Source of the DNA: a virus
DNA length: 60,024 nt
IMG/VR virus record: IMGVR_UViG_3300042455_000193
Coordinates: 1 to 60,024 of that record
Strand: one strand, 5' to 3'
Below are positions 3,117 to 50,000 of this stretch, in pieces (positions within the stretch are counted from its first letter, which is position 1; each line of letters opens with the position of its first letter). The notes below the pieces were generated by a model. That model saw nothing but the letters and a program-made list of their open reading frames with translations, was not told the origin of the DNA and searched no databases. A program made the position numbers and the translations under genes.

Positions 3117-3129
3117 TTAGCACAGCTAA
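3117..3129 (+). promoter_or_regulatory. Candidate operator TTAGC-ACA-GCTAA
   Basis: All ten arm positions form a perfect palindrome. It lies 49 bases before the repressor ATG and overlaps a TAATAA that could serve as a -10 element, as expected for autoregulation. Confidence 0.6.
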
Positions 3130-3178
3130 TAATGCCAAACAATGCTTTGATGTTTGAATCAACATAGGAGAATCCCTG

Positions 3179-3769
3179 ATGGCATCAAGAAGAGAGTTAA
3201 CAGCCGAAGAAATGGCTGATACACAGCGACTGCAGCAGCTGTGGAAATCGCGTGCACACACCCTTGGACTGACCCAAGCCAAGGCAAGCCAGATGTTTGG
3301 CTTTGCCAATCAAAGCGCTATCAGTCAGTACCTCAATGGGCGTATCCCTTTGAACATGGAAACTACGACTCGCTTTGCTGCGCTGCTCAAAGTTCCACTC
3401 GGTGATATCTCCCCAAGTCACGCAAGCAGAACAACATCAACTTCCCCACTGATGAACGCTATGAGAAAAGCGTTTAAGACAGGGGACAACTGTGATCTGA
3501 TTGCTGTGACCAGCGGCATGCAAGACATCGTTGGCAACTCCGATTACCTTCTTGTTGACAAGAGCCAAAAGAAACCCGCTAAAGGCGTTTTCTTGGTGGG
3601 TGTAGGCGCTGATACCAGAACACTGCGTTTATCGCCCTACAAGTCTTCCTATCGAGTTACAGGGCTAGTGCCAGGAAGTGAAGTCTCTCTACCCAAAGAG
3701 GCACTGGAAGCTATGAACATTATCGGCAAGGTTGCTGGCGTGATGATGATGCTTCAAGAAGACTTTTAA
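3179..3769 (+). CDS. CI-like phage repressor (XRE HTH plus S24-like domain)
   Basis: 196 residues. Residues ~15-65 form an XRE-type helix-turn-helix (LGLTQAKASQMFG, then QSAISQYLNGRIPL). The C-terminal part resembles the S24/LexA-CI fold (GNSDYLLVDKSQ, then VGADTRTLRLSPY). In self-cleaving members a GDSM-like Ser and a later Lys form the dyad. Here the matching segment reads TSGMQD, and the Lys position falls in TRTLRL, so autoproteolysis looks unlikely. AGGAG precedes the ATG by 8 bases. It is transcribed divergently from the replication operon and is the likely lysogeny repressor acting on the operators here. Confidence 0.85.
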   Translation: MASRRELTAEEMADTQRLQQLWKSRAHTLGLTQAKASQMFGFANQSAISQYLNGRIPLNMETTTRFAALLKVPLGDISPSHASRTTSTSPLMNAMRKAFKTGDNCDLIAVTSGMQDIVGNSDYLLVDKSQKKPAKGVFLVGVGADTRTLRLSPYKSSYRVTGLVPGSEVSLPKEALEAMNIIGKVAGVMMMLQEDF

Positions 3770-3793
3770 ATCTGCTGTTAGGGTTTGTCATTA

Positions 3794-3806
3794 TTAGCAT
3801 TGCTAT
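3794..3806 (+). promoter_or_regulatory. Candidate operator TTAGC-ATT-GCTAT
   Basis: Nine of ten arm positions match the recurring palindrome. It sits in the 112-bp gap between the repressor and the ERF gene, 76 bases before the ERF start. TATATGATTG downstream could include a promoter element. Confidence 0.6.
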
Positions 3807-3881
3807 TGTAATTTGATCAAAGTCAATATATGATTGGCACTCCAACGCAAAGGTTGGTGTTACAAATCATAGGAGTTGACG

Positions 3882-4589
3882 ATGGTCAAAGAGGTGATGG
3901 GACACGTTGTCCCCCATGTGTATCAAGCAATTGCCGAGGTCATGTCTCGGTTAGCCAAAGACGGTATCGGTAAAGACCGTCGCAATGAACAGCAGGGATA
4001 CGCCTTTCGGGGTATCGATGATGTCTACAACGCACTAGCACCCATCCTTGCGGATGTCGGTCTGTGCATACTCCCACAAGTCAAGTCTCGTGAAGTCGTT
4101 GAGAGAACCTCCGGTAATGGGCGTACTCTTTTCTACGTCAACGTAGACGTAGACTTTTCTTTTGTCTCCACAAAGGATGGCTCTTGCCACGTTGTGTCCA
4201 TGCCCGGTGAGGCAATGGATTCGGGAGACAAAGCAACCAACAAAGCAATGTCAGCGGCGTACAAGTACGCATGCTTGCAAACGTTTTGTATTCCCACTGA
4301 GGGTGACAATGATGCGGATGCAACAACACACAATGTTAGCGCCGCTCCCGCAGTCAAAGTCGTAGCGCCCAAAGTATCAGCAGTAAAAAAACCTCAGTCG
4401 CAAGACAAGCTAATCGGTGAAGCTGAAGTTCAAACTATCACCAACCTAGCGCAACATGCAGGTATCACGCTTGAGCAAATCTGCTCCAAGCACAACATCC
4501 CATTCATCGAATTGCTACCCCTTGCTAAAGCCGGGGATGTGATCAAACGTCTACAAGAACTGTCAGTAACCACAGGAGAAACAGCATGA
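3882..4589 (+). CDS. erf: ERF-family single-strand annealing protein
   Basis: 235 residues. The N-terminal ~150 residues show the ERF pattern: IAEVMSRLAKDGIGKDRRN, then YAFRGIDDVYNALAPILAD, then a MDSGDKATNKAMSAAYKYA segment ahead of IPTEGDNDAD. The Ala/Lys/Pro-rich linker and C-terminal helical part are less conserved. ERF proteins anneal complementary single strands and promote recombination or circularisation of phage DNA. The ATG at 3882 has AGGAG at 3871-3875; a TTG at 3876 would add two residues. It heads a tight operon with a small partner protein and a PD-(D/E)XK exonuclease, a standard recombination module. Confidence 0.9.
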   Translation: MVKEVMGHVVPHVYQAIAEVMSRLAKDGIGKDRRNEQQGYAFRGIDDVYNALAPILADVGLCILPQVKSREVVERTSGNGRTLFYVNVDVDFSFVSTKDGSCHVVSMPGEAMDSGDKATNKAMSAAYKYACLQTFCIPTEGDNDADATTHNVSAAPAVKVVAPKVSAVKKPQSQDKLIGEAEVQTITNLAQHAGITLEQICSKHNIPFIELLPLAKAGDVIKRLQELSVTTGETA

Positions 4590-4858
4590 GTTATCAACAA
4601 GCACCACAACAAATCTCTTTGATTGTGTTTAAAAACAAATACAAATCTAAACCTACACACCCTGACATGACGGGAACCATGACGTTGCCTGATGGCAAAC
4701 AGATGGAGATCTCTTTGTGGAACAAGGTAAGCGAGACTTCTGGCGAAGAATTCTACGCAGGTAACGCAAAAGAAAAGTGGGTCAAGCCTGAAGGCTATGT
4801 GTCCAAGGGACAGCCTCGCACCCAAGCCAATCAGAACCGAGTCAAGATCGATTTCTAA
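4586..4858 (+). CDS. Small ERF-associated protein, unknown function
   Basis: 90 residues; starts by ATGA overlap with the ERF stop and follows AGGAG. The motif KSKPTHPDMTGTMTLPDGK followed by ISLWNK resembles small phage proteins often encoded beside annealing proteins. Its compact beta-rich look (N-K-x-K...H-P-D...G...W) would fit a nucleic-acid-binding role, but that is not shown. It ends one base before the exonuclease gene. Confidence 0.8.
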   Translation: MSYQQAPQQISLIVFKNKYKSKPTHPDMTGTMTLPDGKQMEISLWNKVSETSGEEFYAGNAKEKWVKPEGYVSKGQPRTQANQNRVKIDF

Positions 4859-5692
4859 ATGAACTTCACCAATCTACACGGGCTACCTCAAGCCTTGGTG
4901 GATGCGGTGATGAAAGATTCATACGTGGGCGGGGGAGATATCTCCGTCACACGCTTGATCGATACACCACAACGCCGAGTCTTGGAGCGTAAGCACAAGA
5001 ACGTCATCGTCGAAGATGTCATTGAGCGCATGTTCTCCATGTGGGGACAGGTTGCTCACGGCATCCTTGAGCGTAGTGACAAGGAAGCTATTGTTGAAGA
5101 GCGCCTGTACATGGAAGTCAATGGTTGGAAGTTGTCGGGTCAGCTCGACAGGCTACTTACTGCCAATGAATCCATTGAAGACTGGAAGACTCTCTCAGTC
5201 TTTAAGAAAGACTCGGACGCATGGGAGAAGCAGCTCAACATCTACCGCTTGCTTGCGCACAAGAATGGCTACAAGGTAAACCAACTCAAGGTCAACGCCA
5301 TCTACAGAGATTGGCGCAGGTTTGAAGCCAAGCGGGGAGGGGACTATCCGCCCATTCCCTTTGCTGTGATCGACATTCCTGTCTGGACATTGGAAGAAAC
5401 AGAGGAGTACGTTGCCACTCGGGTTGCCATGCATCAAGCAGCAGACCGTGGTGATGTTACGCCATGTACGGATGAGGAGCGGTGGGCAACACCAACAACC
5501 TACGCTCTCATGAAAGAAGGTGGCAAACGTGCCACTAAAGTAGCGCCAACAAAAGAGGAACTCGGAGACCCAGCCAAAGGATTCTTTATCGAAGAACGCC
5601 TTGGTGGATACCGACGATGTGAAGAATTTTGTTCTGTCGCTCCATTTTGTAAACAGTTCAATGGCGAACGCACACTGGAGAAACAAGAATGA
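4859..5692 (+). CDS. RecB-like PD-(D/E)XK exonuclease
   Basis: 277 residues. Nuclease core residues can be followed: His67 in GQVAHGILER, Asp97 in SGQLDRL, Asp108-x-Lys110 in IEDWKT, and the QxxxY helix (QLNIY, 125-129). The C-terminus holds CTDEERW and CEEFCSVAPFC, cysteines that in Cas4/AddB-type relatives bind an Fe-S cluster; whether four ligands are complete here is uncertain. It probably resects DNA ends so the ERF protein can anneal strands. The start follows the previous stop directly, and its own stop overlaps the next gene by ATGA. Confidence 0.88.
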   Translation: MNFTNLHGLPQALVDAVMKDSYVGGGDISVTRLIDTPQRRVLERKHKNVIVEDVIERMFSMWGQVAHGILERSDKEAIVEERLYMEVNGWKLSGQLDRLLTANESIEDWKTLSVFKKDSDAWEKQLNIYRLLAHKNGYKVNQLKVNAIYRDWRRFEAKRGGDYPPIPFAVIDIPVWTLEETEEYVATRVAMHQAADRGDVTPCTDEERWATPTTYALMKEGGKRATKVAPTKEELGDPAKGFFIEERLGGYRRCEEFCSVAPFCKQFNGERTLEKQE

Positions 5693-5898
5693 TCCTAGAT
5701 GTCAACGAAGCAGCTAATTTTTTAGGGGTCTCAACTGAGACCATTCGTATCCTTGCTCGAGGCAAGAAGATCCCAAGCGCCAAGATAGGTCGCCAATGGA
5801 GATTTCAGCAAGACGATTTAATAACTTTTTTGAGGAGCCAATATGAACCAACAAAAAATACAACTGGCTCAGATGCACAAACAGCAGTACCTGCATGA
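5689..5898 (+). CDS. Excisionase/MerR-type winged HTH protein
   Basis: 69 residues. The sequence LDVNEAANFLGVSTETIR, then GKKIPSAKIGRQWRF, is the classic HTH_17 (Xis/MerR-like) DNA-binding pattern. It could be the recombination directionality factor for the integrase at 7821, though it lies 2 kb from it, or a small transcription factor of the early operon. It starts by ATGA overlap with the exonuclease stop. The last 56 bases overlap the next gene in another frame. Confidence 0.82.
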   Translation: MILDVNEAANFLGVSTETIRILARGKKIPSAKIGRQWRFQQDDLITFLRSQYEPTKNTTGSDAQTAVPA

Positions 5899-6100
5899 GT
5901 GGATAGAAGAGTGGTGGGTTCAAGCGCATGAGGATCGTGAGTACATATCGTCTGCTGATTGGGCAAACGTTGCTGTCACCATGATTGCCATGCTGATCAA
6001 CGCCTCAAGCGACAAGCTTGAAGACAGAGAGAAGCTAGCGTTTGAGACAAGCAAGATGATCCACGATGCGCTGTCAGCGTACAACCATTTGGAGCAGTGA
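5843..6100 (+). CDS. Hypothetical early protein
   Basis: 85 residues with a strong GAGGAG site before the ATG despite a 56-bp overlap with the HTH gene. Helical and acidic, with Trp-rich HEWIEEWWVQAHEDRE near the N-terminus. No family recognised. The stop TGA is shared with the next start (TGATG). Confidence 0.75.
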   Translation: MNQQKIQLAQMHKQQYLHEWIEEWWVQAHEDREYISSADWANVAVTMIAMLINASSDKLEDREKLAFETSKMIHDALSAYNHLEQ

Positions 6101-6321
6101 TGTTCTGCCCAGTTTGTGGGGAGCAGACAAAGATTCTGCAAACCCGCCTACTGGCAGATGGATCAAAGAAGAGAAGAAGAGAGTGCCTCGATTGTGAGGT
6201 GAGGTTTACTTCAGTCGAGAAGCTCTCTTCAATCCCAAAGCCCAAAGCAGTTCGCGGCATTAAACGGGAGAGTCAGGAGGTTGGTTCAGCACCTCCGGAT
6301 CTCTCAAAGTTATGGCGGTGA
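6100..6321 (+). CDS. NrdR-like zinc-ribbon protein lacking the ATP-cone
   Basis: 73 residues. CPVCGEQTKILQTRL, then RRRECLDCEVRFTSVEK, closely matches the zinc ribbon and Arg-rich strand of NrdR, the repressor of ribonucleotide reductase genes. NrdR also carries an ATP-cone of about 100 residues, which is absent; the protein ends in a basic tail. It may bind NrdR boxes or interfere with host NrdR, or be a generic zinc-ribbon adaptor. GGAG precedes the ATG, which overlaps the previous stop. Confidence 0.75.
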   Translation: MFCPVCGEQTKILQTRLLADGSKKRRRECLDCEVRFTSVEKLSSIPKPKAVRGIKRESQEVGSAPPDLSKLWR

Positions 6322-6324
6322 GGC

Positions 6325-6636
6325 ATGGAGTCAAAGCTTCGCTTCACCCCAAGTCAAGCGAGTAGGGAGGATGAGTGGGCAATGCAGTTGTACGAGTGTC
6401 GCAAGAGGTTTTGTGAACACGTATCGATTGCTTTGCAGACTCGCTCTCCTACCCGCCGAAGAGAACTCTACGAAGGATGGCGTAAAGAGTTTGGAGATGC
6501 AGCCACAAGAGATTGGGCCAAGTATGCAGAAGGTGTGTATGCGGGGGGGGATACCAAGCTGCTCGAGAACCTACGCAAGATGACGCAAGAGTTACCCAAA
6601 TCAATTCCTAGTTACATGATTGTGAGGGAAACATGA
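6325..6636 (+). CDS. Hypothetical early protein
   Basis: 103 residues, rich in Arg, Glu and Trp, probably all-helical (RRRELYEGWRKEFGD). No known motif. It is in series with its neighbours (3 bases after the previous stop, 4-base overlap with the next gene). The ribosome site is weak (GGTGAGG). An overlapping frame at 6281-6583 is judged a shadow. Confidence 0.7.
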   Translation: MESKLRFTPSQASREDEWAMQLYECRKRFCEHVSIALQTRSPTRRRELYEGWRKEFGDAATRDWAKYAEGVYAGGDTKLLENLRKMTQELPKSIPSYMIVRET

Positions 6637-6902
6637 ATACTGAAGATGATGAGTTCCGCCGAATTGAGCGGGAGAATAAATTAAAAAGTAGCGGCATGGA
6701 CTGCTGCACATACGACTGCATACAGGGTAGGGACTGCCCGGTGCGTAAAGCTAAGTGGTCTAACCTGAGTGAGAAGGAGATGTTATTGGCTTACGGCTGG
6801 GGTGAGCAGGAGGTTGCTAGCTGGCAAATCAGGTTTGCCAAGGAGAAGATTTTGGAAGGACTCAGAAGCGTTGAGTCTGCGATCAGGAGTAAGAACACAT
6901 GA
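6633..6902 (+). CDS. Small Cys-motif protein
   Basis: 89 residues. MDCCTYDCIQGRDCPVRK near residue 22 is a cysteine cluster (C-C-x3-C-x5-C) shared by many small phage proteins of unknown role; it may bind zinc. The rest is helical. It starts by ATGA-type overlap and its stop overlaps the next start. Confidence 0.75.
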   Translation: MNTEDDEFRRIERENKLKSSGMDCCTYDCIQGRDCPVRKAKWSNLSEKEMLLAYGWGEQEVASWQIRFAKEKILEGLRSVESAIRSKNT

Positions 6903-7084
6903 GCCGCAAAGGACCTAGCTTTGAGTCGTGGAGCATTGAGAATTTAATTAAGTTCTCCAGCGAGGCATACGAAAAACTATGCCAACAAGATGACTACATC
7001 CAGCAACTTCAATGCGATTTGAAGACTGCCATAGAGGCTTACAGAAAACTCAATGAAAAAGTTGGTGACCATGACACAAGATGA
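6899..7084 (+). CDS. Small coiled-coil protein
   Basis: 61 residues with heptad-like spacing (YIQQLQCDLKTAIEAYRKLN). ATGA overlap with the previous gene. Function unknown. Confidence 0.65.
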   Translation: MSRKGPSFESWSIENLIKFSSEAYEKLCQQDDYIQQLQCDLKTAIEAYRKLNEKVGDHDTR

Positions 7085-7289
7085 AATCATTGAGATGGCT
7101 AAACAGGCTGGATTTAGGATTGGTTTAGATATTCCAAGCATTTATGAGGCACATGAACGCTTTGCCAAGCTAGTAGCACAGCATGAGCGTGAGGCGTGTG
7201 CTTATTGGGCAGGGATTGCACTACTTGGCGCTGATCAACGCCTCTCGAATCGAGTAGATCAAGCCATCCGAGCAAGGGGACAAGCATGA
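7071..7289 (+). CDS. Small conserved phage protein
   Basis: 72 residues. MTQDEIIEMAKQAGF and FAKLVAQHEREACA are recurrent in small early phage proteins of unknown function. The in-frame ATG at 7053 would add MKKLVT; the 7071 start is preferred because that N-terminus is the common one, though neither has a strong ribosome site. It overlaps both neighbours. Confidence 0.65.
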   Translation: MTQDEIIEMAKQAGFRIGLDIPSIYEAHERFAKLVAQHEREACAYWAGIALLGADQRLSNRVDQAIRARGQA

Positions 7290-7759
7290 CTAAAGACGAA
7301 GCATTACGCCTTGCATTGGAGGCGTTGGAAAAACTCTGGAACATCATTGACGACATAGACACTTATAGCGATATGGCAAAAGCGGATGAAAAGCTATATC
7401 GTTCATTGGTTGAACGCAGACAGCGCCAGCGGTTTGAAGAAACTGGAATATCAACTGATGGCTATGAATTGCATGGGGGAGCCATCACCGCCATTAAAGC
7501 CGCACTAGAAGCGAAGGATGAGCCTGTGGCTTGGGCGATGTTGCATGACAATGGACATTTCATTGATGCAATACACCCTAATGAACACGCAAGAGTAGAA
7601 GGCGAATACATCACACCTCTTTACACCACCCCACCACAGCGCATATGGGTAGATGTGCCGCTAGATGAAATTCCAGAAATCTATATTGGCGACCTCGCTT
7701 TTGTGCATGGCGTTCAGTGGGCCCAAGCCAAACTAAAAGAATTAAACACCACCAATTAA
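7286..7759 (+). CDS. Conserved early phage protein
   Basis: 157 residues. The N-terminus MTKDEALRLALEALEK, the central AITAIKAALEAKDEPVAWAM and the LYTTPPQR segment form a modular pattern frequent in phage early genes of unknown function. The C-terminal ~40 residues (IYIGDLAFVHGVQWAQAKL) look like a separate small domain. It is the last gene of the early operon before the integrase and overlaps the previous gene by 4 bases. Confidence 0.75.
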   Translation: MTKDEALRLALEALEKLWNIIDDIDTYSDMAKADEKLYRSLVERRQRQRFEETGISTDGYELHGGAITAIKAALEAKDEPVAWAMLHDNGHFIDAIHPNEHARVEGEYITPLYTTPPQRIWVDVPLDEIPEIYIGDLAFVHGVQWAQAKLKELNTTN

Positions 7760-7760
7760 C

Positions 7761-7789
7761 AGCTTTGCTATACTAATGTTCGCAAAGCT
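7761..7789. repeat. Inverted repeat AGCTTTGC / GCAAAGCT before the integrase
   Basis: Eight-base perfect arms with a 13-base loop. Inside lies TTTGC-TAT-ACTAA (7764-7776), 8 of 10 matches to the recurring operator palindrome. CAAAGCTTTG at 7783-7792 recurs at 9056-9065 beyond attP. It could be an operator of the int promoter or a recombinase/Xis site. Confidence 0.5.
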
Positions 7790-7820
7790 TTGTTGATTAG
7801 TGCCTACTAGAAGGATCTGT

Positions 7821-8903
7821 ATGGCAATCAAGCAAAGAGGCAGGGTCTGGTGGTACGAGTTTACGTTGAATGGGAAGTCCTACCGGGGCTCTTGTAAGAC
7901 GCAAGACGAGCATCAGGCACAGGAGTACCACGACAAGGTTAAGGCTGCTGCTTGGCGGCACTCGGTGGTGGGCGAGAAGGTCAGGCGTACATGGGGCGAG
8001 ACGCTCAAGCGCTGGCTGGGTGAGCACGAGAACAAGAAGTCGTATGTTGACGATACAAGGTACGCCGCTTTTTGGACTGAGGAGTTTGCTCGGGCGGGGG
8101 TTGTGTATCTGGATCAGATTACGCCAGACGCAGTGAGCAAGATTCGGGATGCCGAGGTTGGCAGAAAGCACAAGAGATCGGTGAATGTTGAGCGTGTGAT
8201 TTCAAAGAACACGGTTAACAGGAAGCTGGCTCTTCTTCGCAGTGTGATTAACGCCGCGCATGCCGAGTACTTGTGGTTGGAGACGAGACCGTTGTTCAGG
8301 GGGTTTACTGAGAACAATGAGATCGTGAGGTTTTTGGAGCCGCATGAGTTTGAGAGACTGCACAAGGCGTTGCCTAGTCCCTACAACCGGATGGCGCTCT
8401 TTGCGGTTAGCACGGGCTTGAGGTTCGGTAACGTTGGGGGCTTGAGGTGGGAGTATGTAAACCTTGCAAGGAGAACGGTGACGTTCCCTAGTACCTTGAT
8501 GAAGAATGGCAAGCCGTTTTCTGTGGCTTTAAATTCTTCGGCAACGGATGTGGTGAGAGCTCAGTTGGGTGCTAGTGATGAGTGGGTTTTTCCGAGCAGC
8601 ACGGGGGGAAGGATTCCATCCATTCCCTCCAAGATGTGGAAGAAGGCGCTGAAAGATTCTGGGATAGAGAACTTCAGGTGGCACGATCTTAGGCACACAT
8701 GGGCCTCGTGGTTGAGGCAAAGTGGGAAGGTAGGCTTGGATGTGATCCAAGAGATGGGGGGCTGGAAGTCAGCGGTGATGGTGCAGAGGTACGCACACAT
8801 GTCTGTTGAGCATTTGGCGCAGAGTGCGAGTGTGTTGGATGGGGTTTTAAACCCCTCACATTCTGCATTCGCACAAATCTCACACAACAGGGGTGTATTG
8901 TGA
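7821..8903 (+). CDS. int: Tyrosine integrase
   Basis: 360 residues. The N-terminus (MAIKQRGRVWWYEFTLNGKS) is the short arm-binding-like module. A SAM-like core-binding region follows (~residues 55-160) and then the catalytic domain. Catalytic residues are visible: Arg about residue 201 in STGLRFGNVGGL, HDLRHTWAS at about 288-296, the GW pair in EMGGWKS, and the nucleophile Tyr about 323 in VQRYAHMS. It should join attP to a host tRNA-Asn gene. AAGGA precedes the ATG at 7821; a GTG at 7800 would add seven residues. attP lies 32 bases past the stop. Confidence 0.95.
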   Translation: MAIKQRGRVWWYEFTLNGKSYRGSCKTQDEHQAQEYHDKVKAAAWRHSVVGEKVRRTWGETLKRWLGEHENKKSYVDDTRYAAFWTEEFARAGVVYLDQITPDAVSKIRDAEVGRKHKRSVNVERVISKNTVNRKLALLRSVINAAHAEYLWLETRPLFRGFTENNEIVRFLEPHEFERLHKALPSPYNRMALFAVSTGLRFGNVGGLRWEYVNLARRTVTFPSTLMKNGKPFSVALNSSATDVVRAQLGASDEWVFPSSTGGRIPSIPSKMWKKALKDSGIENFRWHDLRHTWASWLRQSGKVGLDVIQEMGGWKSAVMVQRYAHMSVEHLAQSASVLDGVLNPSHSAFAQISHNRGVL

Positions 8904-8934
8904 GTAGCTCCTTACCTGCAAAGCTACTGGAATA

Positions 8935-8979
8935 TGGCTCCTCGAGCTGGGTTCGAACCAGCGACCTACGGATTAACAG
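8935..8979 (-). other. attP: attP core: 3' 45 nt of tRNA-Asn(GTT)
   Basis: Read on the minus strand this is the 3' part of a tRNA. It has anticodon loop CTGTTAA (GTT, Asn), 3' anticodon stem ATCCG, variable loop GTAGGTC, a T-arm GCTGG-TTCGAAC-CCAGC that pairs perfectly, acceptor strand TCGAGGA, discriminator G and CCA. The 5' half (acceptor, D-arm) is missing, so it is not a functional gene. This is the usual sign of an attP that restores the tRNA gene on integration. The position just beyond int supports it. Confidence 0.93.
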
Positions 8980-8999
8980 GGTGACAGTGGATACAAAGG

Positions 9000-9070
9000 T
9001 TTACTAATTAGTACCAGCATTTACTAGAATTGTTTAACTTACGCGCTAATCTAAACAAAGCTTTGCAAAG
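9000..9070. other. Candidate recombinase arm-site region beside attP
   Basis: Contains TTTACTA at 9000-9006 and 9020-9026 (20 bases apart) and the overlapping palindromes CAAAGCTTTG and CTTTGCAAAG at 9056-9070. CAAAGCTTTG also occurs upstream of int. The spacing relative to the core is compatible with integrase arm or accessory sites; this is an inference. No gene lies between 8904 and 9154. Confidence 0.4.
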
Positions 9071-9121: not shown

Positions 9122-9156
9122 AGACCTACGGAGTAAACATCCGTAGGTCTTTTTTT
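9122..9156 (+). terminator. Rho-independent terminator after int/attP
   Basis: Perfect 10-bp stem AGACCTACGG/CCGTAGGTCT, a 9-base loop, then seven T on the plus strand. It stops rightward integrase transcripts before they enter the convergent late operon. The T-run overlaps the stop codon of the giant gene. The left arm repeats ACCTACGGA of the attP core. Confidence 0.9.
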
Positions 9157-12100
9157 ATTCATTCGATACAGCCACACCCTCAAACTTGGATCTGGTAAAT
9201 GCTTTGGTAGCTTGAGCATACAACCTACGCTCCGCTTCCTTCTCGATGTTCTGGTAGTTGATGACTTGCTTTCGCATCGCTTCAGCTTCCTTGGTTTTAC
9301 CAGCCCGAACCAAGACATCTACCTGCTCTTCAGCTTTGTAGCTGGGTCTTCGCATATTCTTGATGCTCTGCTCGACTGACTTCAGGATGGCAACTGTCTG
9401 CCCCAACTCAGGATGCTCCGCCATGATGGCTTTCCTGCGAGGGTCATCAATCTCGTACTTAATTGCATCGTTGTACAAAGCTGTTGCTTCTTTGAATACC
9501 CTTCGGAATGACTGAGCGTCAGCCGACTCAGACGGATAAGCCGAGAACCTGTCAGCCAAAGGCTCCTTCTCCCTTGGTACATCCATACCCCGAGCCTTCC
9601 TAGTCTCATTACCAAGGTATCTGTAGAGTTCGTTTGCCACACCGGGGGTATACCCTTGTATCAGATGATCAATCAAAGCGGGGCTAATGTCAGCACCCTT
9701 CTGGTTGAATCTATCGCCGCCGGTAACACGCTGAAGCCAGACAGTAAAGTCTTTCGATATAGGGTTAACGGAAGCAAAAGCTTTATTCACATCTGATCGA
9801 CCCTCTTGATCGGGACCTGTTAACTCTGGGTAAATGGGACCGCCAAAGCGGTTCTTGTTCACCTCATACTGATACGGTGTGACACCAATGGTAGGCATCA
9901 AAACAGCTAAAGCCTGTTTATAAGGCTCCGATGCAACCTTAGTTAAGTCAAAGCCTGATCCACCCACGGGTGAGAACGCTTCAAAGAACGCTTGCATGAT
10001 GCGCTTTGCTGTAGTGGTTAAAGGTACTGGTCCATTGACCGAGTCAGACATGAATACACCAGCAGCGTAGAACGCATTCCAGCCATAGGGTAGGGGGATA
10101 GCGCCCCATCTCTCATTTGGCGCAACTATGATCGATGTAGCCCGTTTGTAGATGGGTATATCGTCAACTACATTCTTGCCGTGCTTCTTCTTGTACTCGT
10201 CATCCTCATCATCACCCGCTGCTCGAGTCATCGTGCCTACTATGAAGCCCATTGCCGTCAAGCTTCCAGCCAAAGCGGCAAACCTACCCTTGTTGTTCCT
10301 TGCAAGCTCAACCATTTGAGCCGTACCCTGCACCGCAGGATTAAAGAACAAATACAAAGCTCGGACTGCTTCGTTATTTCCACGCATGTTGAAGTCAACC
10401 GTTACCCGGCCAGCATAATCCGCTGCCTGACGGGGAGTTGAGCCGTTCTTTGTCAAGGCTGAATAAGCCGCCAGTCTAGGAGCCATCTCCATTGGGATGG
10501 TCAGCAGCTCCATGAACTTGAGCATGCCGTGCATTTTGGACAGGGTACTCGTGCCGTGCAAAGCCTCATGAATCATTAGAGATTGCTGCTCAAGATCCTT
10601 GCGGTTAATGAACGAAGTCAAAGCGCCAGCAGATCTAGCTTCGTTGTAGATTGCCATACGATCACGATCAGCCTTGCCAGTCGTAGCCGTCGCAAGCAAG
10701 CGAGTGCCGCGAGAAATTGCAAGCAATGTTTTCTGGGCTGCTTTACCTGCTGCAGTAGAGGGTTGCATATCCATGATCGCCATGTGCAGTGCAACACCCA
10801 TAAAAGGCACAAGCTCCTTCATCATCTGCCCAGCAGTAGCAGTTTTAACTTCACCATTGACGGCTGAGTTAAAGAACAAAGTCTGAACGTCTCGAGCGAA
10901 GTTAACCGTAATCCACAATGGGTTATAGGTAGTGATCAGCTGCCCAGTAAACCGAGTGATCTGACCAATTGCATGTAGCAAACGATTTTGCGCAACTGGA
11001 TTCGTGCCGTATAACGATTCAACAATGGAACCGGCTCCAGTATCTTTAAACCTAATGGTTATTGGTATACCTCTTAGCCTTGCGACCATCACATCAGGCT
11101 GTCGAATGTATTGTTCGTTATCTATGATCTGAACAAAACCATCTTCACCAATCTTTTTAATCTTAGATTGCTCATTGATAGAGACAAAGTTCGGGTCATA
11201 GTTTGTTTCAAAGAATGCCAGAACTTTTAGTGAGACTAAATTCTTTTGACCACGAATAATGGATGCCTCGTAGCCAAGGATGGTTCTAGCCAGCACCTCT
11301 TGCGCAATGTCAGATCTACCAAGCGCTCTCTTATCACGAGCTTTATTCAAGAACTTGGTGCTCATGTTTAAGCTAGGGTCATCCATGAAGTCTTCGTCAA
11401 CTTCTTTATTGATGCCAGACAGATTCCGGTAATGCGCATAGGCAGAACGTCTTGCTTCACCATCCTTCTTTGTAATCAATCCAGTGGCAATCTCATTGTT
11501 AATCTTCTTGTCGCTCATTGCATCCAAGAGTTTGCCGATCTCATTGAACTGCTTGGCGTAAGACTGCTGGCTTACAAAGTCAAGGATCTCCCTTGCAATA
11601 AGGGTGTCCATACCAGAGCCTTTTAGGCTGGTTGGATTAATCCTATTGATCTGCAAGTTACGCTCTTCAGCTGTCTGGGCAACTAGGAAAAGATTCAACA
11701 TCTCATCAATAGTGGCGGCTTGGATTGTCCCATCCTCCGATGCGTACCCCTGCTTACCCTTTTGCTTTCTTGCTTCTTTCAGCAAGTTCATGATTGGAGT
11801 GACGAACTCTTTGTTTGCATCCTCAACCATGACAGCTGTCTGGCGCTCATACAAACGCAAGTCTTTGCGCAGATCAAGCTGATCGCTTACACGACCAATC
11901 TTCTCCATCTGCTCAACGATCCTAAATACCGGAGCGTACTGGTTCTGTAACTTGTTAACAGCAGCATTCCAGTAACCACGCAGTCTGCTAACTTCACGAG
12001 ACTTCTCGAACGCCACGTAGTCAGCAGGGATCTTGTTGTCTCTGAAGAATCCAGAACGCACACGCTGCTCAACAGTACCCAATCTCCTCATAAACTGCTG

Positions 12101-15100
12101 AAGCTGATCGTAGTTGTCGAACGTATTTACAAACGATCTTTGGCGGATGTCTCCGTTCTTATTGGAAAACAAATACCATGTGTCATTTAGTGGGTCATAA
12201 CGAGCATAGCCTGTGGTGTTACCACCTTTGGTAGCAAACAACTCATAAGGCAATTTGCCTTCAGCCAGTCGGATATCTCGAGGCGCACCCTTAAGTGGGC
12301 TGTATCCACCGCCATTGTCTACGTGCTGCTTTGCCATCTTTAGGCTGTAAGCCAATTCAGCACTGGTCATCTTGCCAAGGAAGTCAGCCAAGAAGTTAAA
12401 GCCAATGCTACGTAGACCAGCAATCGTCTTGCCAATCCACTCTGTTGCCGCTGATACCTCTACGCCATCAGCCGCCATGTCAGCCAAGACTTCATCGATG
12501 GCTTGCAGCTTGGTTACTCCGCCTTTAGCCACGGCAGCATCTACAGTACGGCGGACAACCTCGTTAGAGTTGTACATGTTCAGCAGGAACTGATCGAAGT
12601 CAGCGCCTTGGAACGCACGGTTGCCCAAGTGTCCGTAAATCTCATGGAAGAGGGTGAACTGCGTGTCCGCCTCGCCAGTCAAATAGTCAGCAAACAGGTA
12701 GGTTACGCCAGTAGCGCTATCGAACAAACCTTTAGCGCCCATACCTTCAGTCAGCATACCTGTGACTTGGTCACGCAAGGCTGCGGGCAATTGGAAGTGG
12801 CTGTTTAGCACCACGATCTGAGGAGCGTTCTTCCACTTGCTGGTAATCTTGGCTACATACGTATTGACCAACTCGTTGGTTAGAACGCCACTGAACATTC
12901 CTCGACGCAGCGGAGCATCATCCTCCCGGGTTGTCATGTCTTGAACATCAACTTCTTCGCCAATGTTATATAGCTCATCGGTAGAAAGATCATCTGTGTT
13001 CTCTTGTCTACCACTAGATCTCTCAAAATCTTCAATAGAAATTGTTGGGGATTCACCAGCAGCGTCTCTCTCTTCCGCTCTTGTGTCCCTAATCTGGTCA
13101 AGCGTGTCTTCCCTTGTCTCCCCAAAGCCCATGTCTTCGCGTAGCTTTGCACCATACTGAGACATGGTATTACCGGTTGATGTGTTCACCACATCTTCCA
13201 TTAATCCATTCATTACCAGACTGTCAATGTGATCAGAAAGAATCTGCTCGGCTTGAACAGTTCCTCGCTCAAAGATCTCGCCTGTGGTTGGATCAACTCC
13301 AGTCATTGCAATCTGATTGACTGCATTAGCAGCATCAGTAATATCCCGTAGATCACTCAACTGTGATCTGATAATCTGGTTTCGGAATTGCCCGAACGTG
13401 GCATCATCCATGAACCGCATACCAAGAAGTTCCTTAATGAATGGAACTCTTGCAGATAAGTTAACTTCGGTATTAACAGCTTTTCTCTTGTTATCGATCC
13501 AAGTTTCAAACTCCTTTTGCTCCGCCTCAGACAAGATATCAAGAACTTGTGTTCTTAAATCTGGTCTAAAGTGCATTGCATATGCAACGTCCCCAAAGTA
13601 AGCATCAACCAGATTCGGAATAGTCTTTGAAAGAATGATCTGCTCACGCTCTGGCATTGTTGATGGATTGCGCATCTCATTCAACGTATGGTCAAGGAAC
13701 AGGAGGTGAGGGAATGCATCCTCTAATGTGTTGGATTCCCTGTCTCCAATCTTGCGGCGTTTAGCTACGTTCTGTGTGGCTTCCTTCCATGCTTGGTAAC
13801 CAGCAACTTCTGAATCAGTGAACGTTCCGTTCTTTAGCAGACCGGGATTAAAGTTAATCACCGAATCCATTGAGCGCATCCATGCGTCACGATTAGCGTA
13901 GCCTGTACCTGCTTGAGCTAGATAGTCTGTAAACCTTTGGCGTAATGCAACGTGCGTATTCTGGGTAATTGCGAAAGGAATATCCACGCCTTGCATACTG
14001 AAAACATCAATGAAGTCATCAAAGCGAAGCAAGCCATCACGACTGGCTGCAGATGCCCAAGAGGTTATCTGGCTTAGTCGTCTGTCGTATTGAGTACCAA
14101 CAAGGTTTGGAAGATCGCCAACTAACCCAGCTAAGAATCGCTTAACAACATTAGCCTTGTTGGTAATGTCGCCTTCCTTGGCAGCTTGATCAATCGCTTG
14201 AGATGCGTCAGCAACAGAGATGGTATTACTACGTACATCCTGAATCAGCTTTCCTAATGCCTCTTCCTCTGTCATTGGAGGTGTTTGATTGGCGGCATCT
14301 TGAGCGGCATTTAACTGCTCTTGGATTTCATTTTGAATCTCAGCTTCAGTTGCAGTAGATTCTTTAAAACCTTCGCTATTGAACTTAGACCTAGCCAACC
14401 TGTTTTGTCTAGCCTCAGACTCTGTAACCGCCAAGGCAGTCAGCATCTGCATGTAGTTAGATAGAAGCTCATTTACTTCTTCGCGGTTGGACCCAGCAAT
14501 GATCGCCTCTTTGGACAGACCCATCATGGTGTCAGCCATGCGGGCAGCGCCACGCTTGAACAAAGCCGCCTTGCTTGCAGCGGACTTGCCTCGAATAAGC
14601 TCAAGCTCTTCGTTTAACTGGCGTAAGCGACCAAGAAGTTCTTGTTTGGTTGATGGTTTGTCGTAAACAAATCCATCAGCGCTGCGGTCATAAGCGTTTA
14701 GATCGCTGTATCCCCACATGCCAGCATTCTCGTCTGACTCATCTTGTAGCTTGAATACTGACTGAGTTCCGTCGCTGTTCTTTACAACCATCGTATTCAA
14801 AGCACTCAGCTTTCCGTACAAATCATTGATTTGTTTTTCCAAAAGCTTACGAGTGTTTGTGAAGTACGCAGTTTGCGTAGTCTGACCAATGATTCCATTG
14901 AACTTACGACGCAACTCCTCTACTGGCTCAGAGTACACAACACGCTTTTCTGCTGGTGCTGGCGCTTCTTTAACTGGCTTGTCTTTAGTAAGCTCGTCCA
15001 GTTGTTTACCTCTGCCTGTACCAATCATTGCCTTCTTAGGCGCTGCCTTGGCTTTCTTCATCAGACTTGAGAAGTCAATACCCCGAGTTTCAAACAACTT

Positions 15101-18100
15101 GTTTTCTCTGAAAACCTTAGATGCTTGACCAACGTTGCCTTGAGACAACAAAGATTCAACCTGAACCAATGGATCATTGGCTCTGAATGTTTCGTTATCG
15201 TTTTCTTCTTGGTCAATGTTGGCTTGACGTACCGTCTTAGCATCTGCCTCAATCTGTTGCTTTAACTTAGATGCCTGATCTGTCTTACCTTCTTTGCGAA
15301 GGCGATTAACTTCAGCCATTCGGTCTTCGACAATCTCTGCCTTATCCCATGTTCCATCGACAGTTTCGTTATAGCCGTTCTCAGAAAGGTACTTGGCAAC
15401 CTCACGCTCACCTACGTTGAAGTCACGGGATCTGTCGGATGCTTTATCTGTAACAATTGTTGCGCCAGCATCAATAGCTTTTTGTATTTCAACAAAGTCT
15501 GGAGCAACACGACCAGAACGATTGCCTTCCGCAGAAATAAAGACTGTATCGTTTGAACTATAAGATCCAACGTTAGCCTTGTTCCCAAATGCTTTGGCAT
15601 ACGCCGTAGTTGAGCTTCTATCGCTGCCCCTGCCTATGAATTTGGTAGCCTTGTCAGCTTTAAGTTGATCTTTAGCTGTGTATTGACTGGTGATGGGTAG
15701 CCTTATACCTGCTGGCTGTCCGCTGGATGCCTCAGAATCCTCCATGAAGCTGGCTGTCTGGTCTCCAGAGTTACCTTTCTGTTGCGCCAACTCAGCCGCC
15801 ACAGAAGACAGCAAATCTCTCACTGTCTCGACATCCGTGAGTTGTTTTTGCAAACCATCGGCTCTGCCAAACATCTCCTTCATCTTTGCAAGGATGCTGT
15901 CAATAGCAATACGAACTGCTTCGAGTAGGTTGGGATTCTTTTGTCCCACCATCTGCCAGAACCTACCATCATTGAACATCAAACCAAGGATGTCACCGGT
16001 AATCTCACTGTCTATATCATTTTTGGAATAACCAAGATCACTCAGCTTCTTGGCGTATCTTGCGTATGCATTCCCCTTGAGGTAACCAACAATACTTGCA
16101 GACAATTCATCCGCTAAAGCTTTGTTTCGATTCTCAAGCTGATGCCATACCTCATGACCTAAGATAAACATGCCATCAACCTTAGACAGTGCTGCCGTGT
16201 TGATGTAAATGTTGTTGCTGTTGTTGTCGCTGAATCCCTTGACTGTTGACTTCTCGGTTGTGTAGCCATTTAACTGAACGCCAAACGCATCAGCAATCTT
16301 CTGCAAGAACGGAGGGACTTCCGTCATCTGAATTTCTGCAGGAGCTACGCCTTCTTTACCCTTTCGAGTATTGGACTCTGTCAGGTGGAATGCGATGACA
16401 TCTTGCGGGGCAGTACCCACATTACCGGCACGATTCTCTGGAGCGTTAATTACCAGAGGCGTAGTCTGCTGCTCAAAACCTGTAGAAGTATTGGCTTGAC
16501 TGCCGGTTGGTGGCAGATTTTCAGGGGACCCTCCAACATTAGAAGCCGTCGCATCTGGAGTCGATTGCTGAAAGATTTGAGTGTTATCAATCTGTGGTGA
16601 TAAACCAATCTGAACACCACTAGATTGTGGTGTGCTTGCTTTATCTTGGTTTATATCGACTTGGGGTTGATCAAAACCTACATCGGCTAGGTCTTGCGCC
16701 GCATCAATCTGAGACTGATCAAAAGATGCGCTGGTTAAGTTTGGCTGCAATACCCCATCCGCTGTATCAGTTAAATCTGTTTGCGGACGTTCTGTTGTAG
16801 CCCCTTGCGCATCCCACATCGCCTCATTCTCAGCATCAATATCTTCTTGAGTACGTTGCGGCTTGGGTGGGAATTTAACTCTGCCCATAGGGGGGAGGGT
16901 ATTCCCGTAGACTTCTGCGCTAGTCAAGAAATCTTCGCCTAACTGAGGAGCATCACTTAAGATTGAGTAGCCTTCATTGATAGCTACCATGTTACCTTTG
17001 AGTGAGTTAAATGCTTCGCTTAAACCAACACGACTTGCTACCCGATCAAGAGATTGTTTGGTAGCTGTACCAGCCTCATCGTCTGATGCTTGGTCATACA
17101 GAGCAGTCATCATGTCCAACGTCTTACGTGTGCCTTGATCAGCATCCCGTTTGAAAGCTCCCTCGATATCAACCGTAGCTCTCAACAAGTTAGCGTCTTC
17201 CAATCGGGTTATGTCTTGATTGAGTTCTTCTTTGGTTGATTGGATATTGCCTCTAGGATCAAGTCCACGAAGTTCAGCCACATTTGTAGCCTGTGTTAGT
17301 TGACCGGGCTTCTCAAGCTTGGCTAATCCACCAAGCTCTGTAACGCTCATAGAAAGCCCTGCAAGCGCTTCCAGTACAGCCTCTGTGGGTGATGCCTCAC
17401 CAGTAGCAGCAAGCTCACCAAGGTACTCTCCAAGACCCTCGCCAACAGTTTCTAATCCAACAGCGGCAGTACCCCTGCCAGCTTTACGTGCAATGGTATT
17501 AACTCCTTCAAGCGCCGTAGTCTGAGCATTACGAATTGCTGATACCAACTTTGGATCTGTAACACCTTCACGAACCATCGCTTCAAACGTGGCTTTCTCC
17601 AAAGCCGCAGTGCTTGCTTCTCTGCCTTGATTGGCAGTAGCCTTTAGCGCCTCAACTTGAGATTGCTTGATTGAAGTTGCTAACTTTGTAGCGTCGTATC
17701 CCGCTGATTCAAGGGTACGCACAGTAGCCGCTTCGACGGCACGGTTGGCTGTACCCAAGATCCATTTGGATGCGCCAAGGGTAGCTACGTCCACTGCGGT
17801 AATGACACCGCCTTTAACAACACCTTGCTGGATCGCTTCATAACGCTCTGCGTCTGAAAAATTACCATCACTTGCAGCTTTCTGCGCCTTGCCGCCAATC
17901 TCCAATGCTGTATTGGCAGAGAACAAACCAGTAATAAAACCAGCAACAGCGCCAATTGGACCACCCAAAGCAAAACCTGCCGCTCCTCCAGCCGCGCCAG
18001 CACCTAAAGATACAGCGGTGTTAGGCAGCTGAGACACAACCATTTGGAATGCGCCTTCAGGATTGTCATACACAGCGCCAGCAACGTTCTTGATACCCGC

Positions 18101-20158: not shown

Positions 20159-21189
20159 TACCGTCCCCCAATTCCGTATTTACGTTTCTGTTCTGCTGCT
20201 GGCATGTGATACTTATCTAACAACTTGTCAAAGAACTCAATGCCTTTGCGGTCAACCACATCTTTTGGTATCACATACTCGCCATTGGATAACATGGCAG
20301 GGATGGAGTCAGAGATTCCTGTGCCGGGTCCTCTTACAGCGCCGCCGGATCTGATATCGCCTCCGTCTGCCCGACCACCACCACCCATAAAAGCACCAGC
20401 AGCGTTCATGATTGCGGCAGTCTGCATTCCTTGTGTTTGGAAATTTGCAAACTGATTCTGGAAGCCCATGTTCAAGTTATTAGCCGCAGAGTTATTCGCA
20501 TTCATTGCGGTGCTGTAATACTGCCCCGGAATCATTGCGCCTTGATTGATCGTGCCCTGCGTTTGATTCATCGAGCTGTTAGCGCCAGCTAAGTTGCCGC
20601 CAGCCAGCTGACTGCTTCCTTGAGATGCGCCGGGGTATCCGCGCCCCACAGAAGCGGCATTGGTTAGCGCTCCACGCTTCATTTGATCTGCGGTTAGGTA
20701 GGCGTTAGTCTGAGCGTTTGCAAGCCCCAGAGCTTGATCTGTTGCGAGTCTTCCTACGGTTGCAGCAAATGCACCTGAGTCTGGTCTTACGCCCATACGG
20801 CTGAGAGATCGCATCCCCTGACCACGAGCGTTTTCAAAACCGTAATTAACGTCAGTGCCAGCTCTCGCTGCTAAGTCTCTGGCGTACTGACCGGTGTTGA
20901 AGTTCATCGCGTCTCTTGCGATAGCTTGCTCTACCGGACGGAACGTTTGCTTGGCGTAGTTAAAGTAATCATCTGAACGAGCTGACTCTTTTTCTGCCAA
21001 TCCTAACTGGCGGTTCATGATTCCTTCAGAGGAATCCAGTAGTCGCTTACGATCTGCATTGTTAATTGCCGCTTGCTCTCGCGCAAACGCCATGCTCTCT
21101 GCTGAAATTTCTTTATTTGCTTCAGCTATGGGCTTGTAGTCAGGAGTAGCTGGTGCTTTCCCGAACAGTAGGTCTCTTACGAAGCTCAT
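20158..21189 (-). CDS. Putative internal virion protein with SDSIPAMLSNGEYVIP motif
   Basis: 343 residues. An N-terminal helical part (AEANKEISAESMAFAREQAA) is followed by a low-complexity Gly/Ala/Asn/Gln-rich middle. The C-terminal GPGTGISDSIPAMLSNGEYV recurs at the C-terminus of many podoviral internal and tail proteins. In this setting it probably belongs to the ejected core. It overlaps the upstream GNAT-like gene by four bases (ATGA). Confidence 0.75.
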   Translation of the reverse strand: MSFVRDLLFGKAPATPDYKPIAEANKEISAESMAFAREQAAINNADRKRLLDSSEGIMNRQLGLAEKESARSDDYFNYAKQTFRPVEQAIARDAMNFNTGQYARDLAARAGTDVNYGFENARGQGMRSLSRMGVRPDSGAFAATVGRLATDQALGLANAQTNAYLTADQMKRGALTNAASVGRGYPGASQGSSQLAGGNLAGANSSMNQTQGTINQGAMIPGQYYSTAMNANNSAANNLNMGFQNQFANFQTQGMQTAAIMNAAGAFMGGGGRADGGDIRSGGAVRGPGTGISDSIPAMLSNGEYVIPKDVVDRKGIEFFDKLLDKYHMPAAEQKRKYGIGGR

Positions 21190-21590
21190 GTCAACTCCTT
21201 CGGTGATATCTCATAGGTATTCATACCGTCTTTACTTTCTACGAAACGGAAACTGGTTGCGTCTAACAGCCTTATGGCTGAGTAGTTATTGCTAGAAATG
21301 CAAACAATCAATGGGTTGTAGTGAGAAAACGCCCACGACAAAGTCGGCTTTAATAAAAAAGCCCACAATCCTTTGTGTTGTTTAGTTACGGCAAGGTGTA
21401 GCTTGTTGCCGATTAGTACAGCGCCCCCGATATCTTTGTCATCATGTTGGTAACCAACTGATGGAAGCTCGGTAAGTTTGCTTAAATAGGTCTGTCTTGA
21501 AAAAGTAGGGGAGACAAAGTATCCTGAGTCAACCCCATCCATTTCTGCCTGAAGATAGACTTCAGGGTTGAGTTGTTTTATCAACCTCAT
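21186..21590 (-). CDS. GNAT-like protein (podoviral internal protein region)
   Basis: 134 residues. GGAVLIGNKLHLAVTKQH, then LWAFLLKPTLSWAF, then SSNNYSAIRLLDATSFRFVE, follows the beta-alpha layout and N-x-x-A-I-R-L...x-F end of GNAT-type acetyltransferase folds. Similar proteins occupy the T7 gp13-like position ahead of core proteins. The acetyl-CoA P-loop is poorly conserved (KQHKGLW), so catalysis is doubtful. GAGGGTG lies ahead of the ATG. A perfect TTAGC-N3-GCTAA site is 29 bases upstream. Confidence 0.7.
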   Translation of the reverse strand: MRLIKQLNPEVYLQAEMDGVDSGYFVSPTFSRQTYLSKLTELPSVGYQHDDKDIGGAVLIGNKLHLAVTKQHKGLWAFLLKPTLSWAFSHYNPLIVCISSNNYSAIRLLDATSFRFVESKDGMNTYEISPKELT

Positions 21591-21619: not shown

Positions 21620-21632
21620 TTAGCAATGCTAA
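21620..21632 (-). promoter_or_regulatory. Operator-like palindrome TTAGC-AAT-GCTAA
   Basis: A perfect 5+5 palindrome in the only gap (51 bp) between the tail assembly gene and the GNAT-like gene. It is the best copy of the recurring motif and suggests a separate, regulated promoter for the internal-protein operon. Confidence 0.65.
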
Positions 21633-31414: not shown

Positions 31415-31427
31415 TTATCAACGCTAA
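31415..31427 (-). promoter_or_regulatory. Candidate operator TTATC-AAC-GCTAA
   Basis: Nine of ten arm positions match the recurring palindrome. It lies 35 bases upstream of the 56-residue gene in an AT-rich 132-bp gap that otherwise holds only a 17-codon frame without a ribosome site. Confidence 0.5.
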
Positions 31428-47722: not shown

Positions 47723-47780
47723 GTATTTACCCCTGTTTAACCCCTTTTCAGTAGCGCAGCTACAAAGAGCGAGCGCAAAT

Positions 47781-47811: not shown

Positions 47812-47945
47812 TTGGGAATATTTGTTCAATTTAGCGAAAATGTACCAATACTGTTTGATTTATGCTAGTACTATCCCTAGTATATAAACTATAAGCACCA
47901 CTATTGTGCATTCTCGGTACTCTATTAGAGATAGATAGCTATCTT

Positions 47946-49211: not shown

Positions 49212-49223
49212 CTTTTGTTAACT

Positions 49224-49253: not shown

Positions 49254-49260
49254 TTTAACT

Positions 49261-49452
49261 ATGACTGAAGCAAGATCAAAATTTCTCGCAGATGAAAACA
49301 AGTTCTTGAGAACTTGGGTTAGGGAACTAATACAAGAGAGAGACTCATTACGCCAAGAACTATTTGATATCAAAGACGATCTCATGTTTCCTGTTAAGCG
49401 TACATCTAGGGCTGTATCTATTCCTTATGAGATAGAAGACATACCTTTCTAA
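49261..49452 (+). CDS. Small helical protein
   Basis: 63 residues, with coiled-coil-like WVRELIQERDSLRQELFDIK. AAGGA lies before the ATG within leader element A. Function unknown. Confidence 0.65.
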   Translation: MTEARSKFLADENKFLRTWVRELIQERDSLRQELFDIKDDLMFPVKRTSRAVSIPYEIEDIPF

Positions 49453-49523
49453 GGGGGAAAGCGTGGTGCTTGATTGGTTTCGGGCTTTTACCACGCTAAC
49501 CAATACCTATTTGCATTTAGTTT

Positions 49524-49552
49524 CACTCTCGTATCACTATTTACACGAAGGA
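49524..49552 (+). promoter_or_regulatory. Repeated leader element, copy B
   Basis: CACTCTCG-T-ATCACTATTT-ACACG-AAGGA before the ATG at 49559. Nearly the same as copy A; TCATTATTTACACGC also recurs at 57608-57622. Confidence 0.6.
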
Positions 49553-49558
49553 ATATGT

Positions 49559-49942
49559 ATGGACTCAAGCATTAAGCAACGCTGGGTCAGAGCATTACGC
49601 TCTGGCAAATACAAACAAGTAAGTGGTCAACTTAGAACCGAAGATGGCTTCTGCTGTCTAGGCGTTCTCTGCGATGTTTACAACAAAAACAATTGGACTA
49701 TCGCTGCTGATGAATATCTTGGCGATGAACACCAAGAGTGGCACTACATAGGCAACAAGGGAATGTATCAATCCATCATGAAGGATGTCTTGCCTTATGA
49801 AGTTGTTGAAGCTACTGGTTTAGATAAACAAAATCCAGAAGTGCCTTACGGCATAGATGGAGGCATGTCTTCTCTTGCCGTCATCAACGACAGTGGCGCT
49901 AGCTTTGCACAGATAGCTGACCTCATCGAGACACACCTTTAA
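49559..49942 (+). CDS. Conserved phage protein with FCCLGVLCD motif
   Basis: 127 residues from the ATG at 49559, which AAGGA precedes; a longer frame from 49463 would run through the repeated leader element. ALRSGKYKQVSGQLRTEDGF followed by CCLGVLCDVY is a recognisable small phage family of unknown function, and GIDGGMSSLAVINDSGASFA is near the C-terminus. The paired cysteines may bind metal. Confidence 0.78.
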   Translation: MDSSIKQRWVRALRSGKYKQVSGQLRTEDGFCCLGVLCDVYNKNNWTIAADEYLGDEHQEWHYIGNKGMYQSIMKDVLPYEVVEATGLDKQNPEVPYGIDGGMSSLAVINDSGASFAQIADLIETHL

Positions 49943-49987
49943 CAAAGTATCAGGGTTTATTCCAATATAAACTTAACTTTTAAATTA

Positions 49988-50000
49988 TTAGTATTGCTAT
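49988..50000 (+). promoter_or_regulatory. Candidate operator TTAGT-ATT-GCTAT
   Basis: Eight of ten arm positions match the recurring palindrome. It ends one base before the ATG of the next gene, so its start would be blocked or leaderless if a promoter overlaps it. Confidence 0.45.

Follow-up and report, generated by a model that had tools for sequence, protein, structure and literature searches.

Predicted dispersed operators of a lambda-type repressor

The window analysed here (60,024 b, the whole IMG/VR virus record IMGVR_UViG_3300042455_000193) derives from an uncultivated phage known from environmental DNA alone and encodes a CI-like repressor. The palindrome TATTAGC-N3-GCTAATA is very probably the 17-bp odd-centred operator of this repressor, present at eight scattered places with about one copy per promoter. 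This assignment, which an earlier note on this DNA had proposed, is made by computation and is based on the conservation of the sites in relatives, their enrichment in non-coding DNA, their co-occurrence with the repressor, and their agreement with the sites of phages sharing the same recognition helix. The system combines an ordinary kind of molecule, a lambda-type repressor, with an uncommon layout of about eight predicted operators that are dispersed singly. The repressor and the predicted operators (palindromes, given without strand; mismatches refer to TTAGC-N3-GCTAA) are as follows.

3179–3769, plus strand: CI-like repressor, 196 aa, with a lambda-CI-type DNA-binding domain (residues ~1–90) and a LexA/S24-type C-domain (residues ~100–193)
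2835–2847: predicted operator heading the leftward helicase-primase unit, TGAGCTTTGCTAA; one mismatch
3117–3129: predicted operator A, TTAGCACAGCTAA, 49 b 5' of the repressor ATG; perfect palindrome
3794–3806: predicted operator B, TTAGCATTGCTAT, ahead of the ERF operon; one mismatch
7759–7776: predicted int operator over the promoter -10 (TGCTATACT), with two overlapping registers, 7759–7771 and 7764–7776
21620–21632: predicted operator TTAGCAATGCTAA within the leftward late region, ahead of a 134-aa gene (21186–21590); perfect
31415–31427: predicted operator TTATCAACGCTAA in the late region, ahead of a 56-aa coiled-coil-like gene (31209–31379); one mismatch
47892–47904: predicted operator TAAGCACCACTAT in the ~640-b gap that separates terS, of the leftward late genes, from the rightward arm
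49988–50000: predicted operator TTAGTATTGCTAT directly 5' of the ATG at 50002 in the rightward arm; two mismatches

Seven of these palindromes had been reported in the earlier note as lying in non-coding gaps before gene starts, and all seven were found there, the copies at 3117 and 21620 being perfect; the site at 47892–47904 is additional. The int site had been placed at 7764 with 8 of 10 positions matching. That sequence is present, with two mismatches, but its register is ambiguous, because in the window the register 7759–7771 scores better (11.3, rank 8, versus 3.0, rank 73, for the 7764 register), whereas the corresponding site of the related contig L053 (TTAGCTATACTAA, 9/10) favours the 7764 register. 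The reported scattered arrangement, as distinct from the clustered right and left operators (OR and OL) of lambda, is borne out as well: the sites are single, and between 2800 and 3200 no tandem lambda-type operators were found, only the sites at 2835 and 3117, which are 282 b apart, scoring above 3.

Enrichment and conservation of the predicted operator motif

Two exact copies of TTAGC-N3-GCTAA were observed in the window versus 0.04 expected, and five copies with at most one mismatch versus 2.0 expected. Only these perfect and one-mismatch copies exceed chance as bare matches. Since the bare counts are indecisive, a test from outside the window was needed. A symmetric 17-bp matrix was built from 11 sites of relatives, none of them taken from the window. 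The five best matches to this relatives-only matrix in the window are the sites at 3794, 21620, 3117, 2835, and 49988 (ranks 1–5, respectively), all non-coding, and the sites at 7759, 31415, and 47892 hold ranks 8, 9, and 12. With a coding mask hand-picked from the open reading frames (ORFs), two-thirds of the top matches (8/12) fall into non-coding DNA, which makes up 7.2% of the bases, the mean for column-permuted matrices being 0.93, with 8 or more reached by 1 of 1999. The sites are thus enriched in non-coding DNA, as the earlier note had anticipated.

Relatives of graded divergence were collected by searching for repressor, ERF, and helicase sequences. Operator A is kept in three-fourths of the repressor-bearing contigs (12/16, excluding the near-identical window copies L003–L005; L185–L187 are identical over the stretch compared), while the flanks diverge. 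It reads TTAGCACAGCTAA in L006, L052, L053, and L185–L187, TTAGCAGAGCTAA in L051, TTAGCATTACTAA in L147, TTAGCACAGCTAT in L149, and GTAGCACTGCTAA in L225, L232, and L233; the similarity of the L185 repressor is limited to residues 3–79. Operator B matches at 9 of 10 positions in L006, L147, and L149, at 8 in L052, and at 7 in L051 and L053. The palindrome adjoining the -35 in the repressor-ERF gap reads GCTATTGACT in L147, GCTATTGACA in L149, and GCTGTTGACT in L052. Only a degenerate form is seen in L051, L053, L165, and L166, and none was found before the next gene of L185.

The 2835 site reads GAGCATTGCTAATA in L006, whereas L051 and L147 retain just one of its halves. L051 also keeps the int site, and the L053 version of that site spans the -10 of a promoter (TTGACA-16-TATACT). 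The 21620 site is identical in L129, the sole fetched relative covering this region, which is 96% identical there. The 49988 site is identical in L031 and reads TTAGGATTGCTAC, with two bases changed, in L007 and L008, whereas the 47892 site reads TTAGCAnnACTAT in L008, L010, and L031. Sites also appear to be gained and lost, because five contigs (L019/L175, L017/L184, L166, L168, L169) carry a strong site ~40–50 b before the homologue of window gene 54022–55203 (phrog_1362, a gene of unknown function), while no site precedes this gene in the window itself. These homologues are 64–69% identical, and their sites are absent from matrix training.

Two further observations concern the surroundings of the sites. 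The product of gene 21186–21590 had no match in PHROG or Pfam, and a similar gene of L306 (4487–4897) overlaps its preceding gene, leaving no gap for an operator. Another palindrome, GTAGCGCAGCTAC, lies at 47751–47763 before terS and is unchanged in L007, L008, L010, and L031; its matrix score is only 8.2.

Co-occurrence with the repressor and sites of other phages

Strong sites accompany the repressor. With score limits (15 and 11) that were chosen after the results had been seen, no match scoring at least 15 was found in 591 kb of 40 loci without a repressor beside the helicase (0.2 expected), and nine repressor-bearing loci (105 kb) contain 14 such matches versus 0.35 expected, training sites accounting for 10 of these. 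The 40 loci, which likely include near-duplicates, are one-half of 80 helicase loci, namely those listed without a repressor match and with 1,000 b or more of upstream sequence. They are richer in G+C (mean 0.58), which lowers the number of chance matches, and the Markov expectations account for that. Three loci first classed as repressor-less had matches (L169, L175, L184); each of these contigs ends near the helicase, and the L175 contig bears a repressor at its other end (L232).

Counts over whole records with at most one mismatch gave 16 matches versus 3 for the reversed-pattern control in six repressor-bearing records (G001, G002, G003, G005, G006, and G007; 172 kb), whereas eleven records without a repressor beside the helicase (631 kb) gave 3 matches versus 9 for the control. 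G004, in which the repressor region was not seen, gave 2 versus 3, and G019, placed in neither group, gave 1 versus 1.

Repressors with the helix SQYL[NT]G were also drawn from other phages and bacterial genomes by way of an alignment (A1). In 29 of 41 non-redundant upstream regions the motif is matched at p<0.05, as compared with other windows of the same locus. Such matches were found for 19 of 21 repressors with [NTG]QS[AS] before SQYL, 7 of 7 with TQG[AV], 2 of 12 with GQ[SAT]VV, and 1 of 1 of another kind (L288). Prophages of Massilia, Achromobacter, and Stenotrophomonas resemble the window in combining the helix SQYLNGRIPLN/MN with TATTAGY-N3-RCTAATA upstream of cI. Several of the loci drawn in this way differ from it in having two or three close sites, e.g., at -29, -64, and -88 in the viral contig L280, and at -29 and -88 upstream of cI in the Stenotrophomonas locus L301.

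A second, independent matrix was compiled from one best symmetric 17-mer per locus of 29 loci with favourable helix kinds, the podovirus motif being unused; it includes noise, since 17 of its 29 17-mers have TAG, CAG, or AAG at positions 4–6. Its consensus is TATTAGTCAGACTAATA. Over 60,008 window positions, it ranks the sites at 49988, 21620, 2835, 47892, 3794, and 31415 as 1, 2, 4, 5, 6, and 10, so that the top ten includes six of the eight window sites. Again, 8 of the 12 top matches are non-coding (permuted mean 1.9; 8 reached in 0 of 2000), although two of those eight (21632, 49968) are neighbours of sites and not sites themselves.

Evidence against the assignment

Several observations weigh against the operator assignment. 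With two mismatches, sites carry no weight as bare matches, because 35 were counted in the window versus 27.2 expected, and 35 was reached in 10 of 100 shuffles. Likewise, TTAGYNNNRCTAA with one mismatch occurs 9 times versus 6.8 expected, and one of these matches, at 11227, is a perfect copy lying within a gene. One-third of the top matches to the relatives-only matrix (4/12) lie within genes (26012, 14245, 39554, and 52792, the last within a 55-aa ORF, 52758–52925). Two non-training matrix matches, in L147 and L185, sit in ORFs, and two sites each in G001 and G003 fall in long open frames, tail-fibre-like in G001; these last were given no weight. By the independent matrix, operator A reaches no better than rank 22, and the two int registers have ranks 209 and 675.

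Four of the 16 repressor-bearing contigs (L165, L166, L168, and L226), forming one recognition-helix subgroup, have no operator before the repressor, the best scores being 2.9–6.3. One of 18 further helicase loci without a repressor match (L202–L219) has a strong site (L218, 15.8). No informative relative is available for 21620 or 31415, the latter being covered by no fetched relative. The helix classes by which the upstream matches of other phages are grouped were defined after the list of those matches had been seen. Finally, the promoter guesses are weak: lax limits were used for the centre positions given below, and a stricter scan of 2700–4000 finds three promoters, equal to shuffles.

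Alternative explanations

The earlier note had likened the layout to stoperators, a comparison that fails on symmetry and number. By this explanation the sites, chiefly those of the late region, would halt elongating RNA polymerase instead of blocking initiation, and 21620 does occupy an intergenic position within the long leftward late unit, with no good promoter there. The sites are scattered over a phage genome, as are the repressor sites of mycobacteriophage L5. However, the stoperators of L5 and Cluster A are described as 13-bp asymmetric sequences, mostly in one orientation and mostly away from promoters, with up to 30 per genome (PMC6550527). The window sites are symmetric and not oriented and number about eight in 59 kb, and three of them (operators A and B and the int site) overlap promoter-like sequence or lie directly beside it. 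We regard halted elongation in place of blocked initiation as very unlikely, although 21620 could still act in this way.

A second possibility is that the repressor binds ATAGTTAACTAT-type repeats at 2885–2976, which would form a local OR, and that the TTAGC palindromes serve another factor. Three near-identical TAGTTAACTAT-like copies (2886, 2904, 2966) are indeed found there, in the helicase-repressor gap. Six relatives (L006, L051, L052, L147, L149, L053) nevertheless keep the recognition helix and operator A, and the competing sequence ATAGNNNNCTAT, whose binding by the repressor the earlier note had named as the finding that would count against it, is absent from all six, so the TAGTTAACTAT-like repeats are not the conserved operator. 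Same-helix repressors of other phages, moreover, have TATTAG-type sites. A local OR made of these repeats is highly improbable; the repeats may serve replication or another regulator.

The helicase-repressor gap holds further repetitive sequence. In L145 and L148 (L052, L053), repeated CTATGGGTACC units replace the TAGTTAACTAT repeats of the window, a fast-changing, iteron-like pattern. At 2924–2948 a perfect AT-rich inverted repeat, TAATAATTTCTT/AAGAAATTATTA, is possibly an origin or terminator, and different hairpin-like sequences occupy its place in L052 and L053.

The sites could also be no more than promoter elements of the extended -10 kind (TGCTAATAT) that happen to look palindromic, given that their right halves resemble TGnTAnnnT and that the int site coincides with a -10. 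Operator B, however, is located upstream of the -35 and clear of both -35 and -10 except for its last base, with both halves kept in L006, L147, and L149; moreover, the palindrome was not seen in six int upstream regions from loci without a repressor match. There is little reason to credit this explanation. Chance matches in AT-rich gaps, to which the 35 versus 27 occurrences at two mismatches would point, are the least credible source, being contradicted for the stronger sites by the equal-composition column-permuted matrices (observed non-coding count reached in 1/1999 and 0/2000) and by six of the eight sites being seen in diverged relatives, some only partly, although chance could still account for 31415.

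The repressor and comparison with known systems

The operator assignment agrees with what can be predicted of the repressor. The protein matches lambda CI (phmmer, 5.5e-7), and its best full-length match is the profile of a lambda-186 hybrid (7jvt, 6e-18). Its structural model (mean predicted local distance difference test score, pLDDT, 84; predicted template modelling score, pTM, 0.51) has the lambda CI-operator complex (1lmb) as best fold match, with Z 15.6 and a root-mean-square deviation of 1.8 over 92 residues. The C-domain matches 186 CI (2fjr, 2fkd) with Z 8.5–8.6, tied with the C-domains of LexA, UmuD', and lambda CI at 7.2–8.5. In alignments, Gly occupies the position of the active Ser of cleavable repressors, as in 186, whereas L165 and L166 retain Ser. 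Because of this replacement, the repressor is probably not cleaved by RecA.

In lambda CI, Gln33, Gln44, Ser45, and Asn52 have roles in operator contact. All four are kept in the alignments; the helix is preceded by an insertion of one residue, and Asn55 is replaced by Ile. The lambda operator half-site is TATCACCG; the window half-site TATTAGCA equals it at positions 1, 2, 3, 5, and 7 and differs at base 6. The window system shares with lambda CI a homologous DNA-binding domain and, as its predicted operator, a 17-bp odd-centred palindrome, but lambda OR and OL are tandem arrays, whereas the predicted operators of the window are scattered over eight places, with about one for each promoter.

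Coliphage 186 CI has the C-domain fold and the Gly in common with the window repressor, whose DNA-binding domain is lambda-type; 186 is induced by the antirepressor Tum (PMC7708051). By layout, phage P1 is the nearest precedent for dispersed operators among the systems compared. Its C1 repressor is described as having 22 dispersed 17-bp operators (PMC8546580), and the predicted likeness lies in the many operators of one repressor spread over a genome; the P1 operators are asymmetric, whereas those predicted in the window are symmetric.

Proposed regulation

A repressor dimer would grip both half-sites through its N-terminal domains, as lambda CI does. Operator A, with its centre at about -17 of a promoter guessed by consensus only (TTATCA-16-AATAAT), would lie on the repressor's own promoter and lead to autoregulation. 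The other sites would control the ERF operon, helicase, int, the terS/right-arm gap, gene 50002, and two late-region genes. At each of these sites in a lysogen, the dimer would obstruct RNA polymerase, and a single protein could thereby shut off many promoters individually rather than through one central switch. Relative to consensus-guessed starts, the predicted centres lie at ~-41 for ERF, ~-17 for the repressor, ~-16 (or -11) for int, +9 for the helicase, and +2 for both 21620 and 31415; such positions would let a dimer block initiation. Binding, repression as opposed to activation, and the location of the promoters themselves are inferred. Operator B adjoins the -35 of a consensus-guessed promoter (TTGTAA-17-TATGAT), and with its centre near -41 it could in principle also activate. 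In lambda, OR2 activates PRM.

A broader scenario appears doubtful as a whole. In it, the lambda-CI-type repressor of this uncultivated podovirus-type family, whose 186-like C-domain is probably uncleavable, would have passed from an OR switch with clustered sites to a dispersed regulon of single symmetric operators. These would include late-region sites, where the repressor could act as an elongation roadblock on the late unit (21620) besides blocking promoters, and right-arm operators would be gained and lost per lineage.

The same DNA-binding module, with the same predicted kind of operator, is found in two layouts, i.e., OR-like neighbours in other phages and prophages (e.g., Stenotrophomonas) and scattered singles here, which makes the evolution of phage switches testable by comparison. 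The analysis also yields a predicted repressor-operator code and a list of genes likely to be silent in a lysogen of an uncultivated temperate phage family.

The phage genome and its relatives

The window ends (1–1104 and 58921–60024) match each other with 17 mismatches, of which 16 are transitions, and the near-identical contigs L003 and L005 read across the joint. For these two reasons the genome looks like a circularly permuted one of ~58.9 kb. The joint may combine two slightly different strains in this terminal overlap. The genes of the window include a primase/helicase, the CI-like repressor, ERF, an integrase, a portal/head-tail adaptor, a large terminase, and a major head protein, a gene content that suggests a temperate, podovirus-type phage. 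The genes next to the early predicted operators are as follows.

1104–2816, minus strand: DNA primase/helicase, heading the leftward early unit (phrog_239, 3e-81)
3882–4589, plus strand: ERF single-strand annealing protein, heading the rightward early unit (phrog_155, 5e-35)
7821–8903, plus strand: integrase (phrog_1, 2e-61; ORF taken from 7800)

A DNA search with window positions 3000–9000 found no close named phage, and in a search with the portal protein every named-phage match was less than 60% identical (e.g., 35% for Rhizobium phage RHph_TM3_14A). A literature search for a temperate freshwater podovirus with operator sites yielded no paper, and among the titles and abstract beginnings listed by other literature searches no description of this repressor-operator system was seen.

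Downstream of int, 45 b at 8935–8979 are 91% identical to a tRNA-Asn gene of Erwinia phages, and ARAGORN found no whole tRNA. This segment is probably the phage attachment site (attP) matching a host tRNA-Asn gene. The late region ends with an ORF of 3,151 aa (9155–18610), which, as a guess, is a candidate giant ejected protein.

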